Source of the DNA: Anadara kagoshimensis
Taxonomy: Eukaryota; Mollusca; Bivalvia; Arcoida; Arcidae
DNA: 64,000 bases
NCBI GenBank assembly: GCA_021292105.1
Contig: CM037869.1
Span: 50,217,234 to 50,281,233, forward strand
Direction: 5' to 3'
A model generated the notes under the pieces. It saw only the letters and a program-made list of their open reading frames with translations, ran no database searches and was not told the DNA's origin. The translations under genes were made by a program, and so were the position numbers. How positions within the stretch are numbered: position 1 is the stretch's first letter; the number at the start of each line of letters is the position of its first letter. This document shows positions 2,439-49,364 of the stretch, piece after piece.

Positions 2439-5400
2439 TAATATACCCAGACAACCACAAACATGGGCTGTGTAAACATGTCAAGGCGCTTGGTGATTTA
2501 TCTATTTCCAGACAGAGAAGTCGACTAAAGTGGGGTATACCCGTTCCTGGGGATGAAACACAAACCGTAAGTAGCTATGACAGGACACTGAGTTGATTTA
2601 TCTTGGTGATTAATCTGTATCCAGACAGAGAAGTCGACTAAAGTGGGGTATACTTGTACCTGGGGATGAAACACAAACCGTAAGTAGCCATGACAGGACA
2701 CTGAGTTGATTTATCTTGGTGATTAATCTGTATCCAGACAGAGAAGTCGACTAAAGTGGGGTATATCTGTACCTGGGGATGAAACACAAACCGTAAGTAG
2801 CCATGACAGGACACTGAGTTGATTTATCTTGGTGATTAATCTGTATCCAGACAGAGAAGTCGACTAAAGTGGGGTATATCTGTACCTGGGGATGAAACAC
2901 AAACCGTAAGTAGCCATGACAGGACACTGAGTTTATTTATCTTGGTGATTTATCTGTATCCAGACAGAGAAGTCGACTAAAGTGGGGTATACCTATACTT
3001 GGGGATGAAACACAAACTGTAAGTAGCCATGACAGGACACTGAGTTTATTTATCTTGGTGATTTATCTGTATCCAGACAGAGAAGTCGACTAAAGTGGGA
3101 TGACCATTTCTTTGCCAATGTGGCCACCAAAATGTTTTCCTGATCAAGTCTCAAAGTTGCAACTAAACTAGGTGCCATTGCAGCTAAAATTTTCATTTTG
3201 TGACCATTATTTTGCATCAAGTCACCAATTTGGTTACAGAAATTTCCATCATCAAAAGCTGCTTAGATTCTGATCCCACTAAGAACAGTGTGAGAAAAAT
3301 TGCTGAAGGTCACTAGATTTCTTCAGGTGCTGGTTCCCTCCACCATTCCTGAACCTACCACATCAATATAAGTGAAAAATTCTTGACTAGTATACTCAGG
3401 GCTCAAAATTGTGACGAAATTAGGTACCATTATCATGGCTCCTTGATCATGGCAGATTGCGTTTTTCTGTTTGTGTTTTACATATTATCACTCCTCGGCC
3501 GGTCACGTGACTTATAGAAGGCATCTATCTATATGTATCTATGCAAAACGTCAAAAGTGTACCAATAGAACAGTAATCATGGCTGAGAAGTAGCTGTTGA
3601 TGTTTCTAGGCAAGTACGTGTGATGCTCCAAAAAAGTAGGGAATACATATATCCATTGCCTGATGATTGGTTGATAATAAATGTTTGATATTATACAATG
3701 TGTTTTTAGATTATTTTTAGGATAAAATCACATTAATTTTATCCCAATGTCTAAAACTGCTAAAAGTCTCAATTTGCACCTAAAAGTTTTAATTGGTGCT
3801 TAATATTTTCATAAAAGGAGCCAGGCTGGCTCCTAGAATCAAAAAGTCACTTTGAGCCCTGATAGTTATTAATGGATGGCAATGTACCTGCCTTTAAGAC
3901 CACCTTTATATACAGACCACCTCTATATAAGGGTCACCTGTCTAAAGAGGCCAGTAGTATTGTATCTTAATCGTTCTTTATTCACATTATTTGAACATGT
4001 TTTTAAAGGCCACCTGTCCATAAAGGTCTCTTTTACTTGTAAATATGGGTGGCCTTTATAGACAGGTTTGATTGTATTAATGGATGGCAATATACATGTA
4101 TTTATACCCCCTGCAAACTAGATTGAGATGGGTATATAGGAATTGCTATGTCTGTCTGTCTGTCTGTCATGTAAAATCATGTCCGGGTCATATCTCATAA
4201 TTGCTTTGGACGACTGTCATAAAACTTTGCATGAATAATCTACATGGTCCAAAGGTGTGTCATGACCTTGAACCAAGGTCATATTGAAAAGGTCAAGGTC
4301 ACAGGGAAACATTAAATGTTGGGGACAGGAGTATTTGGCTCTTATGAGACAGCTCTAGTTTAAATAGGAATAATCATCATTTTACTTGTAGATCTATGTA
4401 TGGTTAGATGCCCTCATTAACTACCTGACTGTGGTCGGATACCCAGACACACCTAGTTATTGGCCCCCTGACTGTCATGTGGTCGGCAAAGATATACTAA
4501 CGTAAGTCATCATAAGACAGTATACATGGTATCAAATGTCAGAGATATTTCTGTCCTGTAATTCACAGGGTCTGATAAAATGACCTATTTGTAATACTAT
4601 TCAGAGTCCTGTGAAATGACTCGTATCATTTTCCATGCTGTCACTGGGTTTGGTAAAAGGACTTATTCCCAATGCCATCACAGGATCTGGTAATAGGATC
4701 CATATCATTTCCCATGAAATGCCATCACAGGGTCTGGTAAAAGGACCAATTCCCAATGCCATGACAGGGTCTGGTAATAGGATCCATATCATTTCCCATG
4801 AAATGCCATCACAGGGTCTAGTAAGAGGACCAATTCCCAATGCCATGACAGGGTCTGGTAGGTAATAGGATCCATATCATTTCCCATGAAATGCCATCAC
4901 AGGGTCTGGTAAAAAGACCAATTCCCAATGCCATGACAGGGTCTGGTAATAGGATCCATATCATTTCCCATGAAATGCCATCACAGGGTCTGGTATTATG
5001 GGATGTGCAATTCTGTGTTTTTTTAAGCAAAATAAATCATGTCAGATGCAAAAAAATTATCAAATGCATCCAGAAGGATTCAAAAAATTCTGTTAACCAA
5101 TTTGAATAAACTGAGAAAACGTGTTTGAAAATTCTGTTAATCAACGAAGATTTTTTTAAATGTTGGAATTCCCCAGTGTACTATAAAAAAATAGTGTGTA
5201 AAAATAGTATTCGTAAATTTCCGGCAAAATTTTGATTGGCTCGTACTCGTATTTGTATTGAATCGGTTAGACATTTTATGCCGATATCTTTGACAGCATA
5301 CTGTCACAATGGCTAAACACCAGAGTAATATTGGCTATTTTGTTAACTATATATACACCTAAAGAAAAAGAGCCAAAGGCACCTGATTCAGAACCTGTGC

Positions 5401-8400: not shown

Positions 8401-11400
8401 ACTTTCCTGGTAAAAATTCACATGTTTAACCTAATTTGTCAGTTTTAAAATTTTGACTTTGGTTTGGGATTGTAGATTGAACCTAGATTGATATGTTTGT
8501 TTTTGAAATCATTAATTTTCCTGTAAACCCATTGTTTCTTTGGACACTCTAAACCATGAATTTATATGTTCAGTCAAATACTATAGATTTTGAGTTTTCA
8601 TTAAAAGAAAACCACAAACTAGTAATTTATTGCCCCTCAAAATGATATTTTTCTGAGAATCACGGAAATTAAACACTGTTAATAAATGATTTCACTGTAA
8701 ATTGTCTTTAAACCCTTGAACTGAATTAGAGTGGTTTAACGGTGCTTAACAACAGTCAATATTCTATCACTAAAATCGGTGTGGTCAGTTTTTGGATAGG
8801 GGAGGAAACTGACCTCCCCCCCCTACTGTCAAGGCACACACTTTAACATTGAGCCATTGAGGCAGCCAACTATCCTTATTTTATTTCAAAAATTTGTGGA
8901 GACTTAAAAACACACCTGTACATCTTAAACATATACAAAACTTGCTCTTAGATTAGATTCTGATGTGAGTTGCTGAAACAGATATTTGTCTTCACTGTAG
9001 GCATAGAAGGATAAAGAACCCTGCTGTACAATGCCAATAGCAGAATGCACAGGCAAAATTTCTGCACATTCGCCTATAGCTGGCAATGTCTCGATATAAG
9101 TGAAATATTCTTGACTGGGACGTTTACACCATTACTCAACTCAACTTGCACATCTCAAATAAACTTGATCTTAGATTAGAACTACTACAGAGCCACCAAA
9201 GCAGTCAACTATCTGTAATAATTTTTTTTTTTTAGATTATTTGGAATCAACAGCAATAGACATTATTAATGATCAGTTGGTTAACACTTGGGCTAATTTA
9301 CTCTCCAGAAGTTGTGGTGCTAAAATCAACCCTGCGGAGAAGTTTCCTGCCTTAAACATGGATATTTATAATGAAATTATGAACGAAGAAGACAAAAAAA
9401 TGTTTGAAAATCTTTATAAATTGGCAGGTAGGTGTCACCAGTGCAGAACATATTATTCTCATACACTAGACATCATGAGACATGGGAATCCTGCATTTTT
9501 TTTTACTCTTGTGAAATTTTCCTGTCTGATCCTAGGGCGAGATCACTTTTCTCAACCAACAATTTCTCAACGTCACAATCACATACACATGCTTAATTGA
9601 TGACGTCATAACTATTTTACGTGAGAAGGTCAACAAAAATCGACTACATCATTTCCAGAAGGCATGGATGATGGCCTGAAAACTGAATTGTTTGATGCAA
9701 TATTTTGTTTACAAATCATGTTTTTATGTTGCAAATTTTGAGAAAAAGAGTCTTACAACTGTTATAGTAACAGTACGAGACGGAGATATCTCAGACTCTG
9801 GTGAATATTCACAATGTCAAGGACTTTCTAAAGCTTGTTCCTGGACAAGAAAATATTCATCTTCACTTCAGATATCTCTGTCTGTGTAAGATTTTATTCT
9901 TATTTATCTTTAACCTTTTAAGGTTTTTGCGACCTTTTTATTTATTTATTTTTTTTTTTGAAAATAAAAAGTGCATAAACAGACATTCATATGGAGTAAA
10001 ATGTGTAGTAGTCACTTTATTGAAATTAAGCTAACTATGAAGCAGGCATGATGTCAGGCATAGATTATAAGAATCCATTATGAGTATCCATGGAGGATAG
10101 GGAAATCTCACCAGAGGGGTTGAACATTTCAGTCAGAGACGAGGCTTGTCAAGTTTCTAACCAGAAATGTTCAACCCCGAGGGTGAGATTTCCTTTTTCT
10201 ACATGGATAAACTTATAATGGATTGTTTTTCTCCCATTTTAATGACGATATTTGGCTTCAAATTCGATTTACATAGACATAGACGCCATGATGAAAAAAT
10301 TAACTTTAACTTTAAGTTGTTATTCATTATTCTACTGTAAAATAAATATCACCATCTGAAAGAATGTACCTGATATTGTTTATACAAAGTATAAACTACA
10401 AAACAAAATTATTTATTCTTAACTCCCAGAAAAAAAATTTAAACATACTCAAAATTTCTTAGTTTTGAAGACTTGTGTGTCCCTTTCATGTTCCCCACAT
10501 GATGATATCATGGAATTGTCTTTTGATAATGACGCCACTAGTGCTAATTTGCACACGCGGCCCTTATAGGGTAGAAATATCCACCTTGAGTATCTCCAAT
10601 GCAATATTTCTATATTACATTGCCTGTTATGGCAGAAATCAATGTTTTTGTTAGCTCACCTGACCAAAGGTCATGTGAGCTTATGGTATGGTGCAGCGTG
10701 TGTATGTGCGTGCGTGCGTGCGTGCATCGTTAACACACATTTTCGACTTCTCCTCTGAAAGTACTTGGCAGATTTCAACGAGACTTGGTCAGAAGCATGT
10801 CTGGGTCGGTGCAATTCAGATTTGTTCGTGGCATTGCCATGGCTACCATTACTAGGTCAAGGTGACCTAGGGGTGCAAAAATCTTAAAAAATCTTCTTCT
10901 CCGAAAGTATTGATTGGAGAAAAAATCTGATGTGATATTTGGCTTCTCTACGGTCTTAAGCCTGTAGTTTGTTCATTTCGTGAAATTCGGTCGAAAATGG
11001 GTTACGCGTTTTTGCGTTTAATTTTGAAAAAATCGTAAAATAGCTTCAAATTGTTATAACTTGACTACTTGACCAGATAATGACATGGGGTTTCAGTTTT
11101 GACATCTTCTTGTTAGTATCTTCAAAATGAGGTCAAGGTCAATTGTGAAGGTCGTGACCTAATTTTTTTTAACTCTGATTATAATTATTATCTCTAAAAC
11201 TATAAACTTTTTGTATAGTTATGTATATTAGAATGTTGTAGGTATTGATACAACGATCATTTTGATGTATAGAAAAAGGTCATGGGTTCAAAGGTCAAGG
11301 TCACAGATGCGAAACAATACAGAAATGGTTAATTATCTCGAAAACTATAAACTTTTTATATAGGCATTTATATTAGAATGTTGTAGATATTGTTACAACG

Positions 11401-13684
11401 ATCATTTTGATGTATAGAAAAAGGTCATGGGTTCAAAGGTCAAGGTCACAGATGCGAAACAATGCCGAAATAGTTAATTATCTCGAAAACTATAAACTTT
11501 TTGTATAGGCATGTATACTAGAATGTTGTAGGTATTGATACGACGATCATTTTGATGTATAGAAAAAGGTCATGGGTTCAAAGGTCAAGGTCACAGATGC
11601 GAATCAATACTGAAATGGTTAATTATCTCGAAAACTATAAACTTTTTGTATAGGCATATATATTAGAATGTTGTAGGTATTGATATAGCGATCATTTTGA
11701 TGTATAGAAAAAGGTCATGGGTTCAAAGGTCAAGGTCACAGATGCGAATCAATACTGAAATGGTTAATTATCTCGAAAACTATAAACTTTTTGTATAGGC
11801 ATGTATATTAGAATGTTGTAGGTATTGATACAACGATCATTTTGATGTATAGAAAAGGGTCATGGGTTCAAAGGTCAAGGTCACAGATGCGAAACAATAC
11901 AGAAATGGTTAATTATCTCGAAAACTATAAACTTTTTGTATAGGCATGTATGTTAAAATGTTGTAGGTATTGATACGGTGATCATTTTGATGTATAGAAA
12001 AAGGTCATAAGTTCAAAGGTCAAGGTCACAGATGCAAATCAATACTGAAATGGTTAATTACTGTATCTCGAAAACTATAAACTTTTTGTATAGGCATGTA
12101 TATTAGAATGTTGTAGGTATTGATACAACGATCATTTTGATGTATAGAAAAAGGTCATGGGTTCAAAGGTCAAGGTCACAGATGCGAAAACAATACCGAA
12201 ATGGTTAATTATCTCGAAAACTATTAACTTTTTGTATAAGGATGTATATTAGAATGTTGTAGGTATCCATAAAACAATCATTTCGATGTATAGAAAAAGA
12301 TCATGGGTTTAAAGGTCAAGGTCACAGATGTAAAACAATACTGAAATGGTTAATTATCTTGAAAACTATAAAAGTTTTGTATAGGCATGTATATTAGAAT
12401 GTTGTAGGTATTGATACAACAATCATTTTGATGTAAAGAAAAAAGTCATTGGGGTTTAGTTTTTACGTTTTCTTTAAATCTATCAGCTAGCCGTTAGTTA
12501 TCAGGTGAGCGTATAAGGCCCATGGGCCTCTTGTTTTTAGAGAACTGATGGTTGGTTGAATGTTGCTTAATGTCGCATCAGCAATTTTTCAACTTTTTGC
12601 GATGAGAACTATCCAAATAAAAAATGTTAAATTTAAATTCAAGATATTTTTTCAACATTGAAACCAACCTTACTCGTCCATAAAATTGACCAGCAATTCA
12701 TCATTTAATCTTGTTTTTGATGAATATAGCTTTTTTGTTTGTATTTCTAGATTCTCAATCCATGTATATAAATTAACCCAAGCTATGTTTTGTAACTGGA
12801 AGGAATGCCAGGGATTTTTCTGACCTTTTTGGGAAAAGGACCTTGGGATGAAATTGGGAAAATGCTCAACAAAAATGTAATTTTGGGAAAAATCACAACA
12901 ACATATTAGAAATTCTAGACCACTAGAAAACTGGTTATTGAACAAATTATATTGGTGTTCACAGCAAAATAGTACTGTCTTTTGTCTCTATATAAATTAT
13001 CCAGCAAAATGTAGGTTAATATAGATTAAAATCATTATCAGAACGAGATATCCTCCGAATATGATGTTGATGATCTTGTGAATTTTTTTTTTCTCAAAAA
13101 ATTGATAAACATAGCTAATTGGGAATTTTTTACTACAGAATTGGGAAAAATGTATGTTTTTAGCATTGGGAATAAGTCCCTTTACCGGACCCTGTGGATA
13201 CCCAGAAAAATCCCTGAATGCTCTGATGCCAACCCATTTTAGCTCACCAGTCAATACACATAAAAATAGTTCTAGAAAGGAAATTGAAATATAAAAAAAT
13301 ATGACTTTTTATATTTTTTCAGATATTGCAGATGAACATTACAGAAGCTACAATGTAAATAAAGCTAACATTGCCATATTTGATCATCTGAGATGGGCAA
13401 ATAGGGTTTTTCATAATAATGAACCGTGGAAACTAGTGAAAATAAAGGAGAAAAAGGACCACGTTGATTGTGTATTACATGTTGCCATGGAAACATTAAG
13501 AGTGTGTTCAATATTGTTACAGCCTGTTACACCACAATTTTCTGACAAAATCTTAAACAAGTTAAATATTCCAGTAGACTGCAGAACTGTAAAGCATGCA
13601 AAAAGAAAGCTTAAAATTCCTCTTACTGATGGACATGAACTTGATAAAGGACCAGTAAATATAATGAGGAGACTACAACATTAA
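2439..13684 (+). CDS. MARS2: Mitochondrial methionyl-tRNA synthetase, C-terminal six exons (5' exons outside window)
   Basis: Class Ia aminoacyl-tRNA synthetase charging mitochondrial tRNA-Met. Predicted exons: 2439-2566, 4392-4501, 6701-6799, 7472-7583, 9236-9427 and 13323-13684, with consensus AG/GT borders and compatible phases. Motifs in order: [55 protein letters not shown], with its first Lys closing exon 3 and MSKSRGN opening exon 4; then the anticodon-binding helical domain with [15 protein letters not shown]; stop at 13682-13684. About 334 residues are present, against roughly 590 for the vertebrate enzyme, so the HIGH-motif half is upstream of the window. The short C-terminus, without a tRNA-binding appendix, points to the mitochondrial form. 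Oddities: exon 3 needs one more T in the T-run at 6726-6729 to stay in frame, and the 3' half of the first exon is tandemly repeated in the intron. Confidence 0.9.
2489..3099 (+). repeat. 113-bp tandem array made of MARS2 exon 3' end plus splice donor
   Basis: The last 78 bases of the exon ending at 2566, plus 35 bases of intron, are repeated at exactly 113-bp spacing. Donor GT dinucleotides fall at 2567, 2680, 2793, 2906 and 3019, each in GTAAGTAG context. A sixth partial copy ends at 3099. Copies 2-4 carry TAA in place of the TTA leucine codon; copies 5 and 6 keep TTA. Each copy also has TATCCAG just upstream of ACAGAG, a possible weak acceptor. A 55-base pseudo-exon from that acceptor would break the frame, so only the first copy is expected to be coding. 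Confidence 0.93.
3870..4080. mobile_element. Palindromic MITE, CCTGTCTATAAAGGCC family
   Basis: Inverted ends related to GACAGGTTTGA and TAAAGGCCACC. Related copies lie at 8086-8262, 13765-14053 and 46968-47150. All four are near-palindromic and noncoding. The copy at 13765 holds an internal ~100-bp direct duplication. Confidence 0.7.
4098..4365 (+). repeat. Dispersed repeat with (CTGT)n and AGGTCAAGGTCA
   Basis: Holds a CTGTCTGTCTGTC tract, then TGACCTTGAACCAAGGTCA and AAAGGTCAAGGTCACAGGG. A reversed relative is at 40440-40682. It lies upstream of the second MARS2 exon seen here. Confidence 0.6.
4625..5000. repeat. 84-bp tandem array, about 4.5 copies
   Basis: Units carry TAATAGGATCCATATCATTT and GCCATCACAGGGTCTGGTAA. 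TAATAG recurs at 4691, 4775, 4863 and 4947; one unit has a 4-bp insertion. The period is a multiple of three, so long reading frames appear on both strands, but they translate to low-complexity repeats and are not genes. Confidence 0.9.
5010..6700. other. MARS2 intron: AT-rich DNA with dispersed repeat fragments
   Basis: No exon recognised. 5880-5955 is an inverted SINE-tail fragment. At about 6115-6540 a repeat has two ~190-bp direct copies, marked by CCTAAACCCTTCAATGGATT at both ~6230 and ~6400. A poly-T/poly-G tract sits near 6507-6530. The rest is simple AT-rich sequence. Confidence 0.6.
6825..7165 (+). mobile_element. tRNA-derived SINE
   Basis: A tRNA-like head (GTGGTAGCTCAGTAAAGTGC as A box, GGGTTTGAACACTGA as B box) is followed by a body with CCAAGACTTGAAAGTGG and a conserved tail, CAATATAAGTGAAATATT and TTGACTGGGACATTAAAC. 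The same body or tail recurs at 8990-9150, 18050-18250, 29630-29930, 42735-42830 and 55635-55975, and inverted near 16140-16390 and 48280-48940. RNA polymerase III-type SINE inferred from the boxes. Confidence 0.82.
7604..7990. mobile_element. MITE with ACAGGGATTTATC termini
   Basis: Begins ACAGGGATTTATCAGGGTCT and ends with its inverse, AGACCCTTGATAAATCCCTG. TTGGGAAA is repeated inside. A related element with CAGGGATTTTTCTG ends lies at 12805-13217. Both are in MARS2 introns and noncoding. Confidence 0.75.
8086..8262. mobile_element. Palindromic MITE, CCTGTCTATAAAGGCC family
   Basis: Starts CAGTCAAACCTGTCTTAAAA and ends in an inverse related to TATAGACATGTTTGACTG. Copy of the element at 3870. 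It lies in the MARS2 intron between 7583 and 9236. Confidence 0.7.
8990..9150 (+). mobile_element. SINE fragment (body and tail)
   Basis: Matches the 3' half of the SINE at 6825: GGCAAAATTTCTGCACATTC, CCTATAGCTGGCAATGTCTC and the GTGAAATATTCTTGACTGGG tail. The tRNA-like head is missing. It ends about 90 bases before the MARS2 exon at 9236. Confidence 0.75.
10071..10225. repeat. Imperfect inverted repeat (foldback element)
   Basis: AATCCATTATGAGTATCCAT and GGGGTTGAACATTTC are mirrored by GAAATGTTCAACCCC and TTATAATGGATT. A small MITE in a MARS2 intron. The hairpin near 50590-50740 has a similar layout. Confidence 0.65.
10655..12535 (+). mobile_element. Non-autonomous element bounded by GCTCACCTGA and CCCATGGGCCTCTTG, with 145-bp internal repeats
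   Basis: Starts TTAGCTCACCTGACCAAAGG and ends AAGGCCCATGGGCCTCTTGT. The centre (about 11150-12450) is a tandem array of about nine 145-bp units. Each unit carries TCAAAGGTCAAGGTCACAGA and AACTATAAACTTTTTGTATA. A reversed, shorter relative with the same two ends lies at 19540-20675. No protein coded. It fills much of the last MARS2 intron. Confidence 0.8.
12805..13217. mobile_element. MITE with CAGGGATTTTTCTG termini
   Basis: Left end CAGGGATTTTTCTGACC; right end CCAGAAAAATCCCTG. TTGGGAAAA motifs recur inside. Relative of 7604-7990. It ends about 105 bases before the last MARS2 exon. Confidence 0.72.
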
Positions 13685-13764
13685 GAGATATATAAAGATA
13701 TACTGATATATCTGTAAAACTCAACTGATTAATGCTGTACAAGGTTTACCAATACAGAAAAAAT

Positions 13765-14053
13765 ATATCAAACCTGTCTTGAGGGTCACCTGTTTATGAT
13801 GGCAACTGCTTTTAAAGGCCAGACAAAAAAATTCCCAATTACTCTTTATTCATTCTATTTGAACCTGTATATCAGGGCTACCTGTCTTGAGGGTCACCTG
13901 TTTATGATGGCAACTGCTTTTAAAGGCCAGACAAAAAAATTCCCAATTACTCTTTATTCATTCTATTTGAACCTGTCTATCAGGGCTACCCGCCTATAAT
14001 GGCCAGTTTCCTGGTCCCTTAGGTTGCCTTTATAAACAGAATTGACTGTGCTT
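13765..14053. mobile_element. Palindromic MITE with internal ~100-bp duplication, at the MARS2 3' end
   Basis: About 80 bases after the MARS2 stop. The segment with CTTGAGGGTCACCTGTTTAT is duplicated, giving open frames such as 13796-13999 that are only repeat translation. The right end matches the CCTTTATAGACAGGTTTGAC family. It may lie in the MARS2 3' untranslated region. Confidence 0.7.
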
Positions 14054-14249
14054 TTCACAATCGGTTGCTGCCAAATTCATATTACAATATTATAAACACA
14101 TGAAATGTTGTCAAGTGTTTTTCTTATTTATTATCCCCCACCTTTTGAAGAAAGAGGGGGATTTTAAATTCGAGTTCCCACCTGTCTTTTCTTCTGTTTG
14201 TCCAAACTTTTGTCTGTCTGTGCAAATGCTTCAAAACTATAAAGCACTA

Positions 14250-15727: not shown

Positions 15728-16134
15728 AACATCAGTTTAACATGTTAAACAAACATAAGGTTTATACTGTAAACCAAATTTTATTCCTCGAGGATTTACT
15801 CGTGTTTATTTCACAAGGACTAAATGGTCCTGAATGTTAATTGTTGTCACCATGTTTCTGAAAATGGTTTTATTTATATCCGATATTCAGCTTAAGTCAA
15901 TATTGCATAAGTTAATATCTGCGAAATGGTTTTGGTAAGAGAATCACGAAAATTAATGGCCAGGAATAAAAATTGGGGTTTCAGTTACTTCTCTTTGGAT
16001 TTATTTATAACATGTACCATACTGTAAAATGTTTATATTTAGTTCGCTATATTTCCGGTCTAGTGTATTTCTGCAAAAATAAAACCACCTTGGTTTTACA
16101 TCCCAGTCAAGAATATTTTATTTATATCAAGACA

Positions 16135-16400: not shown

Positions 16401-16439
16401 AGGTCAACATTATAACATAAGTTTATCTGTTTCATTAAA

Positions 16440-17544: not shown

Positions 17545-17888
17545 ACCTGTAACCGTTAATTACAGAATATGTAACTAGTCCCAAGAAAAACTTAACTTTT
17601 TGTGTTGATACAAGGTGATACTGCTAGACGTCTTGATGTAAACTGCAACACTATTACAGAATATGTTACTATAGTTCCAAGAAGAGTTAACATCAAGTTA
17701 ATTTTGAGTTGATATAAGGTGACCCTGCTAGACACCCAGGGGCAATCTGTTACATAACCACAGAATAATTTAACTATAGTCCCAAGAAGAATTTAGATGA
17801 CTGTCGAGTTGGTACAAGGCGACCCTGTTACACTACCAGGTGCAAACTGTAACATAACCACGGAATATGTGATGACTGTCCCAAACAA
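17545..17888 (-). repeat. Tandem duplicates of the terminal exon of the receptor gene
   Basis: About 3.5 copies of a ~100-bp unit. The copy nearest the gene (17793-17888) is the intact last exon. The copies further downstream match it with substitutions (CCAAGAAGAA, ATAACCACAGAATAATTTAA, GGTGACCCTGCTAGACACCC) and keep the TACAAGG/TATAAGG-TGA spacing. They would fall in the 3' untranslated region if the TAA at 17793 is used. Confidence 0.85.
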
Positions 17889-32100: not shown

Positions 32101-35100
32101 AAACGGCCGTCTCGTGCTTTTAATATAAAACTGGTATAATATGTTTTTTAATCAAAAACATTATTGCTGAGTTCTCCTGTACATAGAGAAATTTTGCGAA
32201 AATTTTGGAAATTTGATCACGTTTATACACCAATTGGGCCTCATTCAAAGTTACATAAGGGCATTTAGGTTCAGGTAGGTCATTGTTGTTCGGTTTTTTT
32301 CCTGGTGTGGTTATCATTCCAATAATAACTATCCAATTCCAATTATGACATAACATTTATAGTTGTTCTGAGTAAGAAGGTACAGAAGGGATAATTTTGA
32401 TATAGTAACATTTGTTGTTTTGTTAAAAAGTACAGAATTTAGTTCACTTTTTCATGAATGAAAAATATTTTTACTATGAGGTCAGTATATTTTGTATTAA
32501 GTTTTTACAAATTTTGTGTGAGTTTATTGGAAAATACGACTTTATTCTTGCATTTTCCATGTGCACTGAATTTGTGGAAATACAGTAGTACATAAGACTA
32601 GTGTTAACGTTAGTCGTGCTTATGTCTATTTGTGCGCATGTCTGTTTTCTGTCGGTCCACAAAAATGATAACCGCATCTCGATCTAATGCGCTTATTGGA
32701 TTCAAATTAGAGCTGTTTTTTTAAATAATCCATGTGTGAATTATGTAGATAGCTTAGTCCATCTGTTTATTCATATTGTACTTTAATTTCAAATATCATG
32801 AAATGACCATTTGTCTGTTCGTCAGTTTTTCTGTCTCTCCATCAAAATTTGTTATCGCATCTCGCTCTAATGAGCTTAAATGTTTGCAATTAGAGAGCTG
32901 TTTTATTCAAACACATCATGTCTGATATAATAATGCAGGTAGCTCAGGCCATTGTTTAAGCATATAATATCTGATATATATATAATTATATAGGTAGCTC
33001 AATCCATCCGTTCATTTATATTGTTTTTCGCTTGCCCATCAAAATTTGTAACCGAATCTCCTAAGGCGTTTATTAGATTCAAATGAGAGTTGTTCTGTTT
33101 TAGTATACCATATCTGATATAAGAACGTGGCTTATTTCATATGTTTATTTTTATTGTACTTTTATTTCAGTGTCTTCAAATGACAAGTCTCGGCAAAATC
33201 CACTGATGCAAAAATTTCCCGAGTCACAGTATTATAATTTGTAATCATTATATTTCTGTTCTATAACTTACCTGTAACATACAGTTCATAAACCACGTCT
33301 GTTACATTTTCTGAAAAAATAATCCTTAAGCATTCTGGTCTGATAGGTGATAAAGCTATGTAGCTTCCATTACATACACCTTCAAAATCCTTGAAATAAC
33401 AAGAAACCAGATCTATTTAAAATTGTATACTATAGACCATTTTGGCCTTATTCGCGAACATGTGAATTCGCGTTTTGAATATTATTGAATACAACATATG
33501 TATGTCAACATATAAATATCTGTTTGCTGGAAATATTCGCGTGATATTTGAATTCGCGAATGGGATAAGTCGCGAATTTACGCGAAAATAAATCTTTTGC
33601 GAAATAAAAGTGATCTACAGTAATCTTAAATGACGTAAGCTATTGAAATTTAAAATCTATTATCTAAAATTACGTTATTATGAAACTCTGAAAGACTTAA
33701 AACATGTCTTACGATCTCTTTAAAAACTTCCAAAACTTTGTTGCTCACTAAAAACTTCCAAAACTTTGTTGCTCACTAAAAACTTTAAAAACTTCCAAAA
33801 CTTTGTTGCTCACGAAAAACTTTAAAAACTTTGTTACTCACTAAAAACTTTCAAAACTCTGTGACTCACCAAAAACTTCCAAAACTCTGTTGCTCACTAA
33901 AAACTTTTAAAACTTTGTTGCTCACTAAAAACTTTCAAAACTTTGTTGCTCACTAAAACCTTTCAAAAATGTGTTACTCACCAAATACTTTCAAAACATT
34001 GTGACTCACCAGAAACTTTCAAAACTTTGTGACTCACCAAAAACTTTGAAAACTCTGTGACTCACCAGATATGGTACAAGAACAGTCTCTTTTGAACAAA
34101 TTTCGCCTCCATAGTTTGTATACTCAATCGTGAATGTAGTGTTTAGATTTTCGAGTGTTATGGATATTCCGTTCATAATAGGCATATACTCCATCCAGCT
34201 CTCATTAAATCGTCTTAACATAAATAAGGACATATAAATAAATAAATAAATACTGTAAAATTATTCATTTTCGCGGTGTATTAAATTTCGGGTTTTTTTT
34301 CCGCGGTCGTTTGTTTCCGAGAAAATTAATTCCGAGCTAAAGTTATATTATGCTTATTGTGCTATAGTGCATATTTTAAAAACTCGGAAATTACTCGAAA
34401 TTTCCTAAACAGCGAACATAAATACACACAAAATTAAATAAGTTTACAGTAAAGAGATACCAAAATGTGGTAATTCCTACTGTAATATGAATTTACTTAG
34501 TTGTTGGTAAACGTTAAAGACTTGAAGTAAAATATATATTAAGCAAAACGAACACATGCACACAATCAGGCAATGTATATCAGATGACAGCTATCTATTT
34601 TGTCCATTTACATTGCATGGAGTAAATGTTTCTGTTGATTCAGACAGAATAATAAATATAAATTATGATGAGAAATTACTAGATATTGTAAACAGCCCAA
34701 AACAATGGTCATATTTTTAACTATCTTTTTTGTACTTTTAATTAATAGTTTTTTCAAGACTTTTTGACAAGAATAATTTGTTTCTACCACAGCAGAGTGT
34801 ATTTTCAATAAGAGTTGTCTCCCTTTCTTTGTCATTAGACATAGCAACCACGTATATTTTAAACATAAACGATATACAAATGAATTTGTATAGGTCATTA
34901 AACAACAATGACATGTCCGTTTGACCTTTCATCAGAAATATTTATATAGAAGGATCCACCCAATAAATTGCTAGTAGTAGGGTAGGATTCCCTGTTAATA
35001 GTATGTATAGGCAAACAATATTGACCTGTCCGTTTGACCTTCCATTAGAATTATTCATATAGGAGTGTCGACCCAATACATAGGTAGTGTTAAGATTCGC

Positions 35101-38100
35101 AGTTAATACATTTACACATTGTCCATGATTAGTGTTCACATCAGGTATACGAATTATACACTCACAATCCCTATTTTTTTTAATTTACTCGTCCATAATG
35201 AATATTTAAATTAAAGGTCAAGCGGACAGGTCAATGTTGTTTACCTATACTCAAGGTACATGATCAGTGTTCACATGATGTAGATAAAAAAACACCTGTG
35301 CTCCCTATATATCGATGTACTTGGTACGAGATAAATATTGAAATCAAAGGTCAAGCGGACAGAAAAAAGTTGTTTACCGATATATACAAGAATACTGATA
35401 AAAAATATAACTATGTAAGACAATTGACGCCTATCGTAGCTATATATCTGTATCATAAATTATCCTACATTTATTTTGCGTCCAAATAGCTCCATGCTCC
35501 TTACATTCCATAGTTTGATTATACACTTGGCATGTTTTGCTAGCTAGAGAATTCCGAATCACCCGATCCTGCCTCAATTCCCTGATTAAATTTTACGTGA
35601 TTTTCCAAACTTGCCAGTTTTAAAAGTTTAACTTTGATATTTAGTTTGATTTTCATAACGACCGATATGTTTGTATTTAGACTTAATTTTACACAGGCTT
35701 AAAAAGCAGTTATTTTCATTAGTAAAACTTTAATTTATTGCTAAACTTACGTGCAGGGTGTCGAATTCATTCATTTCAGTAATACTGTCTTGCTGAAATA
35801 ATCTTGTAGTTTTAACTGTATTATCTGAAAAACGACAAATAAAACCAACATGTATTTTTTGTAATGTATGTTTTTATTGTCCCAGACACTAAATAGGGAT
35901 GGTCAAGTGCCAGGGTTGGGGTCACTGGGTTCTCTTACCGGATAACAAAAGGATAATTTTACATACACAAGACATATACATAAATATATAATTGTACAAA
36001 CTTCAATCTATATTCTAGGGATTAATCTAGATGTTGTAGTTAGGCGCACTTCCGATTATGGGGGATGTGTGTGTCTTATAGCAGTTATAACCAACATGTA
36101 TTGCAACTCAATTAAGGTAAGTCTCCCTACTTTTGTTGTCAATCAGAACATCACATGTCGCGTAAATATCGTATAAGAGTTCGTCTGATCTATTTGGCTG
36201 ATGCCCCTAAATACTGTAACGTTTTTATTTTCACGGTGTACTAATTTTCGCTTGTTTCGAGACCGATTGGTTTGCGCGAAAATAAATACCGAGCAAAAAT
36301 TATATTGTGCTTATTGTTTTAAAGTGCATATTTAAAAAATTCAACACCGCGGATATGTCTTAGTTTCATATACCTCGGAAATTAATACACGTGAAATTAA
36401 ATACGTTTAGAATATATATTTGTCTATTTACCAGCTAAATCGAAATTTGTTGCTAGTTAAAATCTGAAAATCCTAAAATTCTAAGGTATACTCCTTTATT
36501 TAAAGTATTTCCTTAGCTTAATTTGCTACATATACATGTATTTTGACTCTTTGGAAATTGTTTCAGTAATTCGAGTCCAAACACCACTATTTAGGAATTG
36601 TATTCTGAAAGCGTCGTTTAGTGCTGTGAAACTTACACAGTATTTTATGTAATTTAAACCACTGAGCCGGTTGTTTGTTGTTTCCCCAAAGATATCACAA
36701 ACTCAGTAGGCAATATTTGTGTGTTATTGTTAGAAATACACTATTGTCTAAATTTGCTGCTAATTTAAAATTAAAATGTCTCAAAACTAAGGTATGTTTC
36801 CTCATGCTTAGAATTTCTTTAGCGTATTTTGGACAGATATACTTTGGTCTTTTGTGTATTTTTATACCAATTTGAAAATGGTTTCCTAAATTTGGTCAAA
36901 GCATTACTGATCGGGAAATGTATTCTGAGACGGTCGTTAAGCACGCATAAAAACCATCTTTAATATAAGTAACTCTCTCTCTCCTTTCTGTTTACATTAA
37001 TTAAACTTACTATATACTTATTCTTATAACAATGGTAGTGTCACAATAAAATATCTTTAACAAGTTTCTGTTACAGTGTTTAAAAGGGTCGGGTCGTTTA
37101 TAACAACACACTTTGTTTATTCGATAACTAAACGTCTGTGGTTTTTATGGTATCCTAGAGCTGACTGCCTTGATATAAGTGAAACGAGTATCTGCATATT
37201 TTTTTTCAATTTCTATCATCCTTTTATTCTCAATTTTGATTTCACAGTGACATGTGTAGGTAGCTAAACAGAACGTGATTACCCTTCTTGATCAGCCTGC
37301 CTCACATTCCTTGTGGGAATTTATCTGTTTAACTTACTTTGCCAAATTACAAAGCTGCTTATTTCTAAGGATTGATGTTTGGATGTTGACAGGTATTGGT
37401 TAGTTTCCCACCACACTTGTGTATCATACTAAATTGAAGGTTTTATACTGGTTACTCACACTTAAACAGAGGCTGCTGTGGCCTAATGGACAAATTTTCA
37501 GTCTACATATCAAGGGTCTCTCACCACTGTGAGTTCGAGTCCCGCTCAGATCGCATGTGGGAAAGTGACTTTTCCTTGCCATTGGCCTTTACTGCTTCAC
37601 CTGGTTTCAGTATAATGGACTGGGGAGCGTTACGCTGTGGCCTACAGACTCAGTGACCTAGCACCTTAAAGTCGCCCGAGTGCCGCCTGTTACAAGGCAG
37701 ACCATACAACACACTCGCACTTCACATGCATACACGAAATTGTCCATAGATTAATAAAATAGTTCTCGTCGCGAATAGCTGTAAAATTGCTGATGCGATG
37801 TTAAGCAACATTCACCAAACCATACAACACTCAGAAAGTGGATAAGTGTAATATTGATCCCTATGTATGTATTTGAATTGTGAAAATGTGGTTTTAGCAT
37901 AGACCGGTATGTTTGGGGTTGACTTTTGGTATTGTTTTTTAACATTGACTGGCAAATTTGTTTTTCATAACTTACAGGCAGACAGTGGATAAGGGTAACA
38001 TGGATCGGTATGTTTGTTGTTGATATTTGGTATTGTTTTTTTAACATTGACAGTTATCTTTGTTTTCTATTACTTACAGGCAGACAGTGGATAAGGGTAA

Positions 38101-41100
38101 CCGTCTTTGGTAATAAGTATGACATTCCTTGTAGTAGTAAAGCCAATACCCTGGTAGACGTAAATATAGGAGTTTGATGAATCATTGCTTAGAAATGCTC
38201 TCCCATTACTGAAAAATTATAGTATAGATTACATAGGTATTGTATATAAATCCATATCATTAAAAATCGTCATCGTCATTATCATCGTATTATTATTACT
38301 CTTACTATAACAAATTGTAATAATTTATTATTATTATTATTATTATTATGATTCCCCACCACCGAAGGTGGGGAATCATATTGTTTTCGTTCTGTTTCTT
38401 CTTATTATTATTATTATTTTATTATTCTTATTATTCTTCTTCTCAAGACCATATGCTGCAGCATATCTCGGTAACGGCTTGATGGATTTAGATGAAATTT
38501 GCTACCAATAATCTGTTGTCTGTGTAGATAATCAAGACGCGTTCATTTTCGTTATCTTGAAGGTGGGTGGGTGGGTGTAACTTAATACGTAGTTAAATAC
38601 CGGGGGAAACCAATTCTGAATGGACATAAGCTGGTTACGACACCTTAATTATACAAAGCCAATGCTTTCACCTATGAGTTAATCCGATTAGTGACCGTTA
38701 AAAACTTGGCGATTTTTAAAACCACAGCTTGTCACGTCACACGCCTGTACGTAAAACCTTACACAATGAGATGAATGGTGTATACAATTTGCCTTGATAG
38801 ATCAAACGGCTTGGGGGTTTTCTGTTAATCACTGACTGTGGAAGTAGAAGACTGCCCACTTTTTTAAGTTTACACCATTGAAATGTCTCCTTTTACTGAC
38901 TGACACTTTCCTAATGACCGGTATGTCGAGTACAAAAATTTGTAGTTATAGTCGGAAATGAATCTTCCGAGTAAGCCGCCACTCTGTTACTATTAACACT
39001 TTTCAAATAAGAGATGGACAATTATTTCAGGTATTGTTCAAGTTTAAGTTTTTTGTGTCTTTTTTATTCAATTTAAACATTGGAATTTTCGTAATTTGGA
39101 CTGAAAGTTCACTTCGATTTAAACATGGGAATTTTCGTAATATTTCGTAATTTGGACTGAAAGTTTGCTTCAAATTCGGCATATCGAATTAACTAACAAA
39201 TTTACATAGAAATGCATAGCGATCTTACGGGACCATTTGTATCATTTCGATTTAAGCGAAATTTCGATTCAACCGATTTCGAATTAACGAGAATCGACTT
39301 TATTTCTTTTGCATCAAAAACACCTAAATAATCTATAGAGCAATGAAGATCTGAGTCTTTTAGATGCTGGAAATAACAATATGAGATTTATTCCGTATAA
39401 TACACCTAAACTAATATGTACCTCAACGTGTTGAAAAGTACGTTTTTTTTTTCAATAGAGGGGGTCTTTTAAATTGGACTATATATACAGCGTCGATCTA
39501 TTTCAACACACTATACACAAGAGTGAACATGCATGCTTCATATAAAAATGTCCGTCTTTTACTATTTTGACTGAGTAGATGTATCGTTATGATCATGAAC
39601 CTCAAACATATAGGAATAACCGATATATGGCCTCCTATGATGTGTATTGCGCATTGAATCACAATTATTAATCAATAAACTTTTTAGAAAAAATATTAAA
39701 TAAACATCACAAAGGGTAACTTTTATTATATTTTATTTTGGATTTTACAATAATTCCGAGTCCATGGCTGACGACATCGGGAGGGCACCTGGATATATCC
39801 TCAGGCAGTGTCGACACGCTCCAATATTACTTGGATCTACCTGCCCATCATTAGAAGGTCTTACATTCGGACCTAAGACAATGATCTTAACTCAGTCGTT
39901 AATTACTGTTTATTCAGTGACACTCGCCAATCCGTCACTGGCTTCAATGTGTATCCACCTGTTAATTACTGGTGACCAAGATACCGGTGAACTTTGAAAA
40001 ACTTGTGGCCAGAAAAATCGCGAAGCGCCGTGTTTTGTCGCTAGTTAAAGAAAAAAATCGCAGTAAGCGATGCCCAGCGCAAACCCTCCCATACGTGTTC
40101 ATTCATTGTAACACGTGGCGACGCCAAATCAGAGGCCTGAGAGGGGTTCTACGAGTTTTCTTATTCAATAAAATTCATTGAAAACGTCACTTCCTATACC
40201 GAGAAGTCCTTCCAATGTACGATTTTTCTCAACCGAAAACTTTAATTCAAATCTACTTTAACTTTCAAAGAAATTTTAAAAAACAATCAAGGTATCATTT
40301 TTTTCAGTTTACCAGGTCGGCGCGGTTCAAATGTTCTTGACTGGGACGTTAAACTCCATTATTAAACTCAACTTAACTCTATCTTATAAAATTATTATAA
40401 AAACATATAATATACATAATTCATTGTTTAAACATATAATGCACTAGAACTGTCTCTAGAGAGCCAAATTCCCCCGCCTCCAACATTTGAAATTCTCTGC
40501 GATCTTGACCTTTCTGATATGACCTAGTTTCAAGGTCATGATACACTTTTGGACCATTAAGATTATTCATATCATGTTTCATGAGAGTCCTCCAAAGCAT
40601 TGATGAGATATGACCCGGACACGATTTTACATAGACAGACGGCAGACAGACAGGCAGACAGACAGACATGGTGATTCCTATATACCCAAATAAAATTAGT
40701 TAATTATTAATTTATTAATATTAATTAAGTGGCATTAATGTCACTGTTAATTTAAACTTTTTATGTTTCACTTTCTTTTGCAGCAATACATGATTGCATT
40801 TAGGCATCAAGCATAACAAATTTAAAGGAACAGTACAGACCTGTCGAAAGTTTAACACTTAGCCAAACGAAAAGGAGCCGAGTCTCGGCTTCGGAGTGGC
40901 AGAGATATGATAGCCAGTGACTGAAAAGCGTTCGAGAGATATATTGATAGCAGGTGCCGAGAGAGACCCATCGAAGGGCTGAAATGAGCTGTCGATTCAG
41001 CAGGAATTCGTTGTTTCAGCGTTAAACTTTCGACAGGCCTGTACTGTACTAAGATACAATTTTTTGTTGATACATCTACTTTTGTAAATATAATACCCAA

Positions 41101-47100: not shown

Positions 47101-49364
47101 ACTTTTACTGGTTTCCTTGGGTGGCCTTTATAGACAGGTTTTACTGTATTATAATCTTACAAACGACTTTTGATAATCACCATTTCATGTCATGTCCGAG
47201 GTTCGAATTCAGTTAATACATTTTGCATTATGAATGCACGACAAAACATTGCAATAAAACCAATACATATTTACAATTAATTTGTTTGCAATTAATTGGG
47301 CATATCCGAGGTCGTATAAAATTCATTTTATGTCACTTTGTAAATCTCAATAAAAGAAGAGATTTTTAAAAAAAATTGGGGCGAATTTGACGGTGAGAAA
47401 ACTGGAGGCGATTTTGAACGGGGTGACTTTGATTTGTTGAAAGTGGGGGCTAATTGACCGTGGGGCGAATTGACCTGATACCATACTGTTATTATTTTTT
47501 TTACTTAAGTTAGCGAAAATTTAAATTTTTATTTTTCAAAAACCAAAAAGGTTCCATTTAGGACAAAATCTCATCAAACTCGCATACGTCTTTAAACTTT
47601 TATTTTTCAAACACCAAAAACGGTCCATTTAGGACAAAGACCCCATCAAACCCGCCATACCTCTTTTATGTTATATTATACATCTGAAGTACATACCCAT
47701 TTCGGGCATCATCCAATCAAATTATTTGTTGTATTAATTACTGTATACCAGTACATACCTATTTCGGGCCTCATCCAATCAAATTACATGTTGTATGAAT
47801 TACATGTATACCAGTGCATGCCTATTTCGGGCCTCATCCAATCAAATTACATGTTGTATAAAAAAATGTATATCAGTATTTACCTATTTCGGGCCTCATC
47901 CAATCAAATTATATGTTGTATAAATTACATGTATACCAGTACATGCCTATTTCGGCCCTCATCCAATCAAATTACATGTTGTATAAATTACATGTATACC
48001 AGTACATGCCTATTTCGGGCCTCATCCAATCAAATTATATGTTGTATAAAATTAGATTATACCAGTACATACCCAGTTCGGTGTACGCGTTCCGAAATCA
48101 TCAATTAGTGTATTGCGGTAACAGCTGGCATTAGCTACAGCGACACCGTTCAACATCCATAAATCGCTAATGTACACATCACTTGGTCCATTTATTGACA
48201 GCAGTGTTTGGTACTCCTTGTCTACAACTATTAATATAAACAAACAAGTATTAAGATTGATAAAATGTTTCTTTTATATCGAGGCGTCAACAATTTCAGA
48301 TGAATTGACAACAAGCTTGGCAGAAGGTCAGTAGGCGTCGGTTACTTCCTAAGTTCCCTATGTCTTCAATTTTTAAATGCCGAGTGCTTTTCGGGAAAAA
48401 GTCCCGACCTATTATCAAGTCGTGGTCCAATTCGGACGGCTTTTGAACCCGGGACCTTCCACATGCATACGAAGCGATTCCCGACCTATTCCCAAGTCGT
48501 GGTCAAATTCGGACGGCTTTTAAAACTGGGACCTCCCACATACAAAGCGAGTCCCGACCTATTTTCAAGTCTTGGTCAAATCCGAACGGCTTTCGAACCC
48601 GGGACCTCCCGAATACGAAGCGAGTCCCGACCTATTATCAAGTCGTGGACAAATTCGGACGGCTTTCGAACCCGGGACCTCTTTCATACGAAGCGAGTCC
48701 CGACCTATTTTTAAGTCGTGGACAAATTCGGACGGCTTTCGAACCCGGGACCTCTCACATACGAAGCGAGTCCCGACCTATTTTTAAGTCGTGGACAAAT
48801 TCGGACGGCTTTCGAACCCGGGACCTCCATCATACGAAGCGAGTCCCGACCTATTTTTAAGTCGTGGACAAATTCGGACGGCTTTCGAACCTGGGACCTC
48901 TCACAAACGAAGCAAGCACTCTACCAACTGAGCTATAACAGTAGTAAATATTTAATAAAATAATTATTTAAAGTTAAGAAGAAAATCATCTGTAGAATAA
49001 GCCAAACATACTTTTGCTGTGCGTATTGTATACACAATAAGATGGGTGATTGGTTGAATGTTTGCTTACCGTCGCATCATCAATTAGGCAGCTATTCGAG
49101 ACGAGTATTATTTGATTATTCTATATTAATTAATCTATGAACACGTTCGTGTACATGCATGTGAAGTGAGAGAGTGCTGTATGGTCTGCCTTGTACTAGC
49201 ACGCACTCAGAGCGACTTTAACGTGCTAGCTCACAGAGTGAAAAATTCGGAAATTACATACACGCGAAAATTTGAACCTGCGAATTAAGTGCATTTACAG
49301 TATCCTTACCTGCTGTTGATCCTGGAACCGAACTAATAATATAAATCACCGCAAGAAGAAACAT
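29106..49364 (-). CDS. Type I membrane glycoprotein of unknown function, mollusc-type C-terminus
   Basis: Nine exons on the minus strand: 49310-49364, 48073-48227, 41846-42003, 38078-38208, 35751-35824, 34066-34200, 33272-33389, 30478-30537 and 29106-29425. All phases agree and total 1206 bases (401 residues plus stop). Residues 1-18 are a signal peptide (MFLLAVIYIISSVPGSTA). The ectodomain (19-365) has few cysteines, a CNC at 306-308, and at least seven N-glycosylation sequons. RKKSCAKDSRASS (351-363) precedes one membrane span (366-386) and a short basic tail. I recall this juxtamembrane pattern from uncharacterised molluscan surface proteins; no ectodomain family is recognised. The exon 6 acceptor is the least certain: one at 34214 fits worse in phase. 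Three of the eight introns start with tandem copies of their own splice donor. Function unknown; a cell-surface or adhesion role is only a guess. Confidence 0.74.
29630..29930 (+). mobile_element. tRNA-derived SINE
   Basis: ACGGTAACTCAGTCGTATGT head, GGTTCGTACCCCGGTCGTG B-box region, CCAAGACTTGAACATAGG body and AAGTGAAATATTCTTGACTG tail. It lies in the last intron of the membrane-protein gene, opposite strand. Confidence 0.78.
30868..32145. repeat. ~330-bp satellite-like array, four copies
   Basis: GCCCCGAGGATATCA recurs at 30868, 31187, 31521 and 31860. Units share AACTAAGGTATACTCCCTCA, GGTCCAAGCACTACTGAT and AACGGCCGTCTAGTG. Single copies are scattered in other introns in both orientations, so this is a dispersed repeat that locally became tandem. 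Confidence 0.88.
32640..33180. repeat. Degenerate tandem repeat, about 3.5 copies of ~150 bp
   Basis: Units with GTAACCGAATCTC or GTTATCGCATCTCGCTCTAA, ATTAGAGAGCTGTTTT, and CATATCTGATATA. Heavily diverged. In the intron between exons 7 and 8 of the membrane-protein gene. Confidence 0.65.
33719..34068 (-). repeat. 28-bp minisatellite repeating the exon 6 splice donor
   Basis: About 12 units. On the minus strand each begins GTGAGTCAC or GTGAGCAAC and runs AAAGTTTTGAAAGTTTTT. The unit touching exon 6 supplies its real donor (34065-34060). At least five further units keep a full GTGAGT. The array is thus a ladder of equivalent donors in the first 350 bases of the intron. Confidence 0.9.
34250..34455. 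mobile_element. MITE with TACTGTAAA termini and TTCGCG motifs
   Basis: From TACTGTAAAATTATTCATTT to AATAAGTTTACAGTA; inner TTTTCGCGGTGTATTAA and CGGAAATTACTCGAAATT are partly complementary. A relative lies at 36210-36420, and a more distant one may lie at 33440-33615. Confidence 0.68.
34900..35255. mobile_element. TIR element AAACAACATTGACCTGTCC, with a nested left end
   Basis: Two left ends, at about 34900 and 35005, share one right end at about 35213-35255, as if one copy inserted in another. A further single right-end copy (AAAGGTCAAGCGGACAG) is at 35344. Confidence 0.75.
36210..36420. mobile_element. MITE with TTCGCG motifs
   Basis: TACTGTAACGTTTTTATTTT to GAAATTAAATACGTTTAG. Shares ATATTGTGCTTATTG and the CGCGAAAATAAATACCGAGC block with 34250-34455. 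Confidence 0.65.
37465..37835 (+). mobile_element. tRNA-derived SINE, third family
   Basis: Head GCTGTGGCCTAATGGACAAA with GAGTTCGAGTCCCGCTCAGA as B box; body CAAGGCAGACCATACAACAC; tail GCTGATGCGATGTTAAGCAA and CACCAAACCA. A second full copy is at 44958-45345, a reversed partial at 49056-49240 and a tail fragment at 12545. Confidence 0.82.
37826..38102 (-). repeat. 102-bp tandem duplication carrying the exon 4 splice donor
   Basis: GACAGTGGATAAGGGTAAC (last exon 4 bases, plus-strand view) next to ACTTACAG (donor) occurs at 38072-38102 and again 102 bases lower. A third, decayed copy lies near 37826-37860. The 102-bp spacer has GGTATGTTTGTTGTTGATA. The copy away from the gene keeps the exon-like bases and a full GTAAGT donor. 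Confidence 0.85.
38330..38600. repeat. ATT microsatellite and dispersed GGTGGGGAATCA repeat
   Basis: (TTA)n at 38318-38348 followed by the small palindrome ATTCCCCACCACCGAAGGTGGGGAAT and further TTA/TTC tracts. Noncoding. Confidence 0.7.
38600..40430. other. Intron DNA without a recognised gene
   Basis: Intron 3 of the minus-strand membrane-protein gene. A plus-strand frame at 39764-39997 and the GC-richer stretch 39760-40160 stand out in composition but match no family I know. The inverse of a SINE tail is at about 40330-40370. Confidence 0.45.
40440..40682 (-). repeat. Reversed copy of the (CTGT)n / AGGTCA repeat
   Basis: Shares GATATGACCCGGACACGATT and the GACAGACAGGCAGACAGACA tract with 4098-4365. 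Confidence 0.65.
40831..41049. mobile_element. MITE with GTACAGACCTGTCGAAAG termini
   Basis: Left CAGTACAGACCTGTCGAAAG, right CTTTCGACAGGCCTGTACTG. 219 bp, noncoding (the minus-strand frame inside is chance). Relatives: 49569-50062 with an inner minisatellite, 62904-63091, and a decayed copy at 50088-50312; a left end also sits at 43970. Confidence 0.88.
41222..41500 (-). repeat. Reversed copy of the GAAGTGAGGCCGGGTGC repeat
   Basis: AGGCCCTCAAAAAGTTTTAT to GACATGGATTAGT; contains the inverse GCACCCGACCTCACTTCCCT. About 350 bases from exon 3 of the membrane-protein gene. Confidence 0.75.
42080..42340 (-). repeat. Reversed single copy of the ~330-bp repeat
   Basis: TTATACCAGTTTTTAATTTT to GCCTTCTGAGTTTGT, the inverse of the unit at 30868. 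In intron 2 of the membrane-protein gene. Confidence 0.75.
42735..42830 (+). mobile_element. SINE fragment
   Basis: ACCAGGTCTGACCCAAAACC, TGAAAGTGGGAAGTGACTGC and CCAAGCACTCGGCATTACGA match the SINE body at 6825. Confidence 0.65.
42850..43960. other. Intron 2 DNA, unassigned
   Basis: AT-rich. A minus-strand frame at 43119-43316 has protein-like composition (FDDGKLKLTEYLEMTNLDQM) and ends in a SINE-tail fragment. I know no family for it and see no splice sites that would add it in phase to the surrounding gene. Confidence 0.4.
43986..44196. mobile_element. MITE with AATTGACG..TCGCCGGCCATG termini
   Basis: Left AAATTGACGGATCGCCGGCC, right GGCCGGCGATACGTCAATT. AATGTTCCGACA and GTCGGAACAATAT are the inner inverse pair. 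211 bp. It sits next to a left end of the GTACAGACCTGTC family at 43970, and a fragment interrupts the LINE remnant at about 51230. Confidence 0.85.
44318..44779. repeat. 35-bp minisatellite, 13 copies
   Basis: Nearly identical units of exactly 35 bp (GCCGAGATATAGCTAACGAC, GGGCCGGTATAAGCT). Differences are mostly GCCGAG against GTCGAG. GC-richer than its surroundings. High identity implies recent expansion. Confidence 0.95.
44958..45345 (+). mobile_element. tRNA-derived SINE, third family
   Basis: CGCGGTGGCCTAATTGATAA head, GTGTTCAAGTCCTGCCCAGA B box, TACAAGGCAGACCATACAAC body, and GATGCGACGTTAAGCTACAT tail. Same family as 37465-37835; the tail has a short internal duplication around ATAGATTAAT. 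Confidence 0.82.
45480..45855. repeat. Degenerate array rich in GGAATTCCAG
   Basis: About nine copies of a ~45-bp unit, CTGGAATTCCAGTAAAATTT with GGTATGGATGGCA. The GGAATTCC core is a palindrome, so the array reads similarly on both strands. Confidence 0.85.
45860..47660. other. Intron 2 DNA with two GC-skewed repeats and a MITE
   Basis: 46425-46590 and 47375-47495 are related G-rich repeats (GGGGCGAATTGACCTGATAC). 46968-47150 is a palindromic MITE of the CCTGTCTATAAAGGCC family. No exon recognised. Confidence 0.6.
47688..48072 (-). repeat. 63-bp minisatellite repeating the exon 2 splice donor
   Basis: Six units of about 63 bp continue from exon 2 into the intron. Read on the minus strand, each unit starts CCGAAATAG followed by GTATGTACTGG, GCATGTACTGG or a close variant, matching the real border GAACTGG/GTATGTACTGG at 48073/48072. 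The remainder is TTTGATTGGATGAGGCCC. The long plus-strand frame (47668-48108) is repeat translation. Confidence 0.9.
48400..48905 (-). repeat. 73-bp tandem amplification of a SINE head
   Basis: About seven 73-bp units with CGAGTCCCGACCTATT, GTGGACAAATTCGGACGGCT and GAACCCGGGACCTC. The last unit runs into CTACCAACTGAGCTATAAC, the inverse of a tRNA-like A box (TAGCTCAGTTGGTAG). The unit therefore covers the B-box region and part of the body of a minus-strand SINE (48280-48945). The open plus-strand frames are repeat translation. Confidence 0.85.
49056..49240 (-). mobile_element. SINE fragment, third family, reversed
   Basis: Inverse tail GGTTGAATGTTTGCTTACCG, then GTATGGTCTGCCTTGTACTA and GACTTTAACGTGCTAGCTCA. 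The head is missing. Confidence 0.72.

Follow-up and report, generated by a model that had tools for sequence, protein, structure and literature searches.

Tandem arrays at 5' splice sites in the bivalve Anadara kagoshimensis resemble the mirages of amphioxus

Minisatellite-like tandem duplications that lie across an exon-intron boundary, with units of 10-160 bp, have been described in amphioxus under the name of 'mirages', and two reports (PMC3087553, PMC3902484) place them in Adh3, in the globins BflGb6 and BflGb9, in TnC and in PGBD5, with many of the repeats carrying splice signals. The first report treats the globin mirages and cites Adh3, gives BflGb6 haplotypes with 3 and 6 units, finds both exon ends affected and proposes that introns are gained out of mirages (PMC3087553), and the second adds PGBD5 and troponin C, with splicing that is accurate despite the repeats and with PGBD5 duplications that are imperfect (PMC3902484). 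In a related system a duplicated segment that crosses an exon-intron border brings ready-made splice signals with it, and a new intron is made (PMC4974935). In the Pacific oyster, Helentrons carry satellite-like repeats that form dispersed short tandem arrays throughout the genome (PMC7492417). Our search of the open-access literature returned no bivalve report of boundary-spanning arrays, though such reports may exist; among the 15 papers listed for the word 'mirages' it occurs in two, both on amphioxus, and the singular 'mirage' occurred in further papers.

The arrays reported here from Anadara kagoshimensis are like the amphioxus mirages in that the unit spans the exon-intron boundary and the copy number varies between two copies of the same region, with splicing here predicted from the sequence. 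They are unlike them in belonging to another lineage, in that a single 64-kb window holds four of them, all at donors, with a further two at the 40 donors of a survey, and in that two of the six units searched incorporate dispersed repeats. As in the intron-making system (PMC4974935), the duplication crosses an exon-intron border, but existing introns are lengthened here, with no new intron seen, where a new intron was made there; in comparison with the oyster Helentron repeats, only the intron parts of two units (the 102-bp unit of the window and the unit of the survey locus L061) are dispersed. On their predicted exon-intron structure the window arrays correspond to the anatomical definition of mirages, the 28-bp one doubtfully, and they seem to be new members of the class in what is apparently another lineage.

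The window, by which we mean the whole stretch of 64,000 nucleotides that was analysed, is C13:50217234-50281233 of an assembly of 1.115 Gb in 36 contigs. A preliminary description of this DNA held that five arrays in it begin exactly at exon borders. Four of these are real, each lying on or abutting a 5' splice site (Table 1), and the fifth, in a receptor gene, is not of this kind. The notion of exact starts was likewise given up once the exonic offsets had been measured: edges fall within 10 bp of the border for the 63-bp array (about 9 bp) and the 28-bp array (about 0 bp), that is for two of the four, whereas the 113-bp array starts 78 bp within its exon rather than at the border and the 102-bp array about 24 bp within. 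Because these last two start inside the exon, what was copied is the end of the exon, the donor and the start of the intron. The same arrangement recurs in a survey of other genes, described below, at two loci with matches to the SLC6 (SNF) family. At L056 the copying of the splice donor is clear, with a 100-bp unit repeated 4.9 times, 74 bp of it exonic, and with the donor present five times, once in mutated form; at L061 a 157-bp unit repeated twice starts at the donor according to TRF, with a short exonic overlap of about 15 bp recognised by eye. The duplicated units contain the exon border itself, and they span it in the 113-bp array (78 bp of exon), the 102-bp array (about 24 bp), the 63-bp array (about 9 bp) and L056. 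In the 28-bp unit only about 4 exonic bases match, as judged by eye.

Table 1. Positions of the arrays and of the exons beside them in the window (a slash marks the exon-intron border)
Feature	Position	Strand	Details
MetRS-like (MARS2) exon	2439..2566	+	acceptor tatttcag, donor ACC/GTAAGT; phase 0 at end
113-bp array x5.4	2489..3099	+	unit: final 78 exonic bp + 35 intronic bp (TRF)
Next MetRS exon	4392..4501	+	tRNA-synt_1g, E=9.5e-6 (Pfam)
Receptor terminal-exon repeat	17598..17888	-	three degenerate copies of ~100 bp, ~70% identity
28-bp array x12.0	33721..34065	-	begins at exon 6 donor; unit has GTGAGT/GTGAGC (TRF)
Membrane-protein exon 6	34066..34199	-	donor CTG/GTGAGT; acceptor placed by eye
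102-bp array x2.0 + one degenerate copy downstream	37898..38101	-	TRF
Membrane-protein exon 4	38077..38208	-	donor CCT/GTAAGT; near-identical in second copy
63-bp array x6.3	47688..48081	-	~9 bp overlap with end of exon 2 (TRF)
Membrane-protein exon 2	48072..48229	-	donor TGG/GTATGT; near-identical in second copy

Most of the window (1442-63141) occurs a second time, inverted, on the same contig (L007-L014). The distance is 640-730 kb as judged by two anchors, and 74% of the window bases can be aligned to this copy, with an identity of 92-98% in the longest aligned stretches and lower values, down to 78%, elsewhere. This second copy may be an uncollapsed haplotype, a reading that draws on several kinase matches being same-contig pairs with similar scores, or it may be a segmental duplication. 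All four arrays are present in both copies of the region, and repeat number clearly differs between them for the 113-bp array (5.4 copies in the window and 1.9 in the second copy, by TRF) and the 63-bp array (6.3 and 8.3). It does not for the 102-bp repeat, of which alignment finds two full copies in either region copy, with no TRF call in the second. The 28-bp array counts 12.0 copies in the window and 11.5 in the second copy by TRF, over spans of 345 and 417 bp. The L056 array is likewise duplicated on its own contig; the other copy is 84-88% identical, and the matches extend over 873 bp against 575 bp. We infer that the arrays grow by unequal exchange.

The reading that we consider likely is that these are mirage-type structures, in which an ordinary tandem duplication of local sequence has by chance taken in a 5' splice site and the resulting array has then grown or shrunk by unequal exchange or slippage. 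As this genome is full of tandem arrays, some begin within an exon, and an ordinary local duplication would now and then happen to take in a donor. Duplicating an exon end, its donor and the start of the intron would be harmless if the first donor is the one used, since all later copies then become intron; the array could subsequently expand or contract through unequal exchange or slippage, and the extra donors would be passengers. The arrays are thus most likely a tolerated by-product and not a device.

Where the unit sequences come from bears on whether the arrays could instead have been inserted beside exons by repeat-bearing mobile elements, with no duplication of exon sequence. Six units were searched genome-wide, with very common words skipped and with counts that are lower bounds. 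The 113-bp, 63-bp, 28-bp and L056 units gave nothing beyond their own locus and its second copy in this search, one further match of 39 bp in these unit searches belonging to the upstream flank of the query, outside the array. The remaining two units hold a dispersed repeat in their intron part. The 102-bp unit consists of about 24 bp of the end of exon 4, the donor and about 68 bp of a dispersed 46-bp satellite; as a query it had 299 matches in all, those at its own two loci among them; of the matches listed, the ones elsewhere are 70-75% identical, and the two examples examined have a period of 46 bp. In the 157-bp unit of L061 the dispersed repeat begins 5-13 bases into the intron and has 41 matches, its own included. 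The earlier view that the units belong to no one mobile family fails for the 102-bp unit, on account of its intron part. These two repeats speak for insertion by mobile elements, as do the oyster Helentrons, which carry such repeats (PMC7492417); yet the repeated units take in stretches of exon (78, about 24 and 74 bp), which contradicts insertion for the 113-bp, 102-bp and L056 arrays, and four of the units occur at their own locus and its second copy only, common words having been skipped. We regard this explanation as highly improbable. For the 102-bp array the junction is informative, as the satellite (...CATGTTA) and the exon (...CGGTTACCC) both hold GTTA. Such a shared motif is what microhomology-mediated duplication would be expected to leave, and on this one case the founding event of the array was probably microhomology-mediated.

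What has become of the additional donors distinguishes tolerance from selection, both of which had been put forward for this DNA. In the MARS2 gene, later MetRS exons match tRNA-synt_1g (E=9.5e-6 and 2e-4) and Anticodon_3 (E=1.2e-5) in Pfam, and neither the array-bearing exon (2439..2566) nor an open frame at 9175-9597 has a Pfam match. The phase of the array-bearing exon and the frame of the next exon are consistent with the first donor, and across the arrays the first donor is probably the one in use. Readthrough past it would meet an in-frame stop after 27 bp in the 113-bp array, 5 bp in the 102-bp array, 18 bp in the 63-bp array, 57 bp in the 28-bp array, 5 bp at L056 and 87 bp at L061. 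If redundant donors were selected, whether for robust splicing or for a regulated choice among alternative 5' splice sites, they should be kept, and some are: the five MARS2 donors in the window (2567, 2680, 2793, 2906 and 3019) all read GTAAGT, as previously described, and so do both in the second copy of the region, which leaves the extra GT intact in 4 of 4 cases and in 1 of 1, respectively. In the 28-bp array every copy followed has GT, 10 of 10 in the window and 3 of 3 in the second region, with the first copy included. In the 102-bp array the full extra copy reads CCT/GTAAGT in both region copies and the degenerate third lacks GTAAGT. Against selection, the extra copies of the 63-bp ladder retain GT in only 3 of 6 cases in the window and 4 of 8 in the second copy, L056 has lost it in one of its four extra donors (3 of 4 remain), each extension examined runs into a stop within 87 bp, and the MARS2 array has a copy number of just 1.9 in the other region copy. 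Within the extra MARS2 units, moreover, exonic sequence is conserved no better than intronic sequence (identity to the first unit of 0.91-0.92 and 0.94-0.97). The intact GT of the MARS2 and 28-bp arrays would be given by selection or by recent origin alike. The evidence is thus mixed from array to array and together argues against selection for redundant donors: the decay in the 63-bp ladder and the stops within 5-87 bp fit tolerance better, and the decay at L056 also contradicts selection, which we hold to be very unlikely.

Whether chance alone places arrays on borders was judged against a null in which the expected number of covered borders is the array density multiplied by (unit + 20 bp), under random placement and for the first unit. 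The 23 window borders were placed by eye from homology and splice signals, some of them only to within a few tens of bases. An array lies on 4 of them, where random placement predicts about 0.75 (P 0.003-0.005, calculated post hoc), and an edge falls within 10 bp at 2 borders against 0.15 expected (P 0.008-0.010); the window having been singled out for this pattern, these P values are optimistic. For comparison we surveyed 40 hand-picked regions, chosen as separate loci with internal profile ends, of which 20 hold 23 of the 101 SLC6 (SNF) matches and 20 hold 21 of the 87 myosin-head matches, some probable second copies having been omitted unsystematically. Thirty kinase loci (L019-L048) were left out because they are mostly single-exon copies of one cluster; contig C2 of this assembly (G000) carries, at 37.37-37.48 Mb, a cluster of near-identical kinase open frames, many of them about 1.8 kb apart.

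Placing the borders by reading the sequence gave 40 donors and 42 acceptors for the 43 exons counted, the two L054 matches being pieces of one exon in different frames and a second exon inside the L078 match being uncounted. The donors of L055, L058 and L063 and the acceptor of L070 were unplaced; placement is approximate for the donors of L078, L087 and the first exon of L068 and for the acceptors of L054, L063, L086 and the second exon of L068, loci among which the sole array with a period of at least 20 is in L068, distant from those borders. At L054 the two frames of the SLC6-type exon meet at one base, which suggests a frameshift or an assembly error. Under a strict rule (TRF score of at least 100, unit of at least 20, border within the first unit or no more than 10 bp from the edge), and with the count made by reading TRF output and not by script, arrays lie on 2 of the 82 survey borders, and a lenient count gives 4. 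The two lenient additions are L065, where the array ends 17 bp before the acceptor (TRF edge 418, acceptor 435), and L084, where a T-rich 40-bp x2 duplication with a score of 101, and with a 19-bp period too, stands at the acceptor. An array at L059 that had appeared border-linked from the profile match was rejected and left uncounted, as it lies 85 bp inside the intron.

The number expected in the survey is 0.98 at the array density of the survey itself, 1.15 at that of the flanks and 3.13 at that of the window, so that the tail probability is 0.26-0.82 for two arrays, 0.076-0.61 for three and 0.018-0.38 for four. Random placement at the array densities measured could therefore account for the survey rate, and no excess of arrays over borders was shown in these 82 borders, which are few enough for a several-fold excess to stay hidden. 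The claim that chance placement of five arrays would be unlikely thus finds support in the chosen window and not in the survey (2-4 of 82 against 1.0-3.1). Two figures tell against chance as the whole account, namely the window rate, which is above random placement, and the lenient survey count of four, whose tail probability falls to 0.018 at the lowest density used. The window rate would be in keeping with exon borders being hot spots for tandem duplication, through R-loops, nucleosome edges or stalled replication, as would the two edges in four that lie within 10 bp and the position of all four window arrays at donors. Set against this are the post hoc nature of the window figures, the survey counts and the exonic offsets, which are scattered over 0-78 bp and unclustered at the border; the suggestion that breaks at exon-intron borders seeded the arrays (R-loops, nucleosome edges) is left unsupported, and we consider hot spots improbable beside ordinary duplication that spans a donor by chance.

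Taking window and survey together, arrays are found at 6 of 51 donors, against 0 of 54 acceptors by the strict rule or 2 of 54 by the lenient one (Fisher P 0.011 or 0.15), where the six donors include the four that prompted the idea of a donor bias; the survey alone gives 2 of 40 donors against 0-2 of 42 acceptors (P 0.23 to 1.0). A bias of donors over acceptors is accordingly a lead and not a result. One tentative account of it, which we think rather doubtful, is that splice-site choice filters tandem duplications. Those over donors would survive, since the first donor wins and later copies turn intronic, and those over acceptors would be purged, since the copied upstream acceptor would be chosen. 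If this were true, donor ladders should greatly outnumber acceptor ladders in minisatellite-rich genomes. Against it stand the amphioxus mirages, which occur at both exon ends (PMC3087553).

The boundary-spanning arrays offer natural ladders of identical 5' splice sites, and with them a clean test of how the splicing machinery decides between equal donors. They are also a visible route of intron lengthening, and the proposal that introns are extended by tandem duplication is supported by what we find. A second lineage with arrays at 2 of 40 sampled donors would make mirages a general by-product of minisatellite-rich genomes, and not a cephalochordate oddity.

The receptor repeat was rejected as a splice-site array. 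It had been described as a repeat of about 100 bp on a splice signal, but the stretch at 17793-17888 yields no TRF array at a score of 40, and by eye the similarity starts inside the terminal exon; it is instead a short terminal exon duplicated in degenerate form (17598-17872, about 70% identity). The most distant copy, read by eye, still codes for a LGTIVTYSVIVLQF-like peptide, and could therefore be a spare terminal exon.

Other features of the window include a 321-aa open frame on the minus strand (313-1275) with a coiled-coil look and no Pfam match over the cut-off, which we take to be reminiscent of a LINE ORF1 protein, and a 458-aa frame on the plus strand (59250-60623) with Mab-21 C-terminal (E=5.5e-12) and nucleotidyltransferase (E=3.9e-5) domains. 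TRF also reports two 145-bp arrays, at 11187-12449 and 19570-20080, which by eye belong to one repeat family in opposite orientation and have a TGACCTTGACCTTTGA-like stretch in common.
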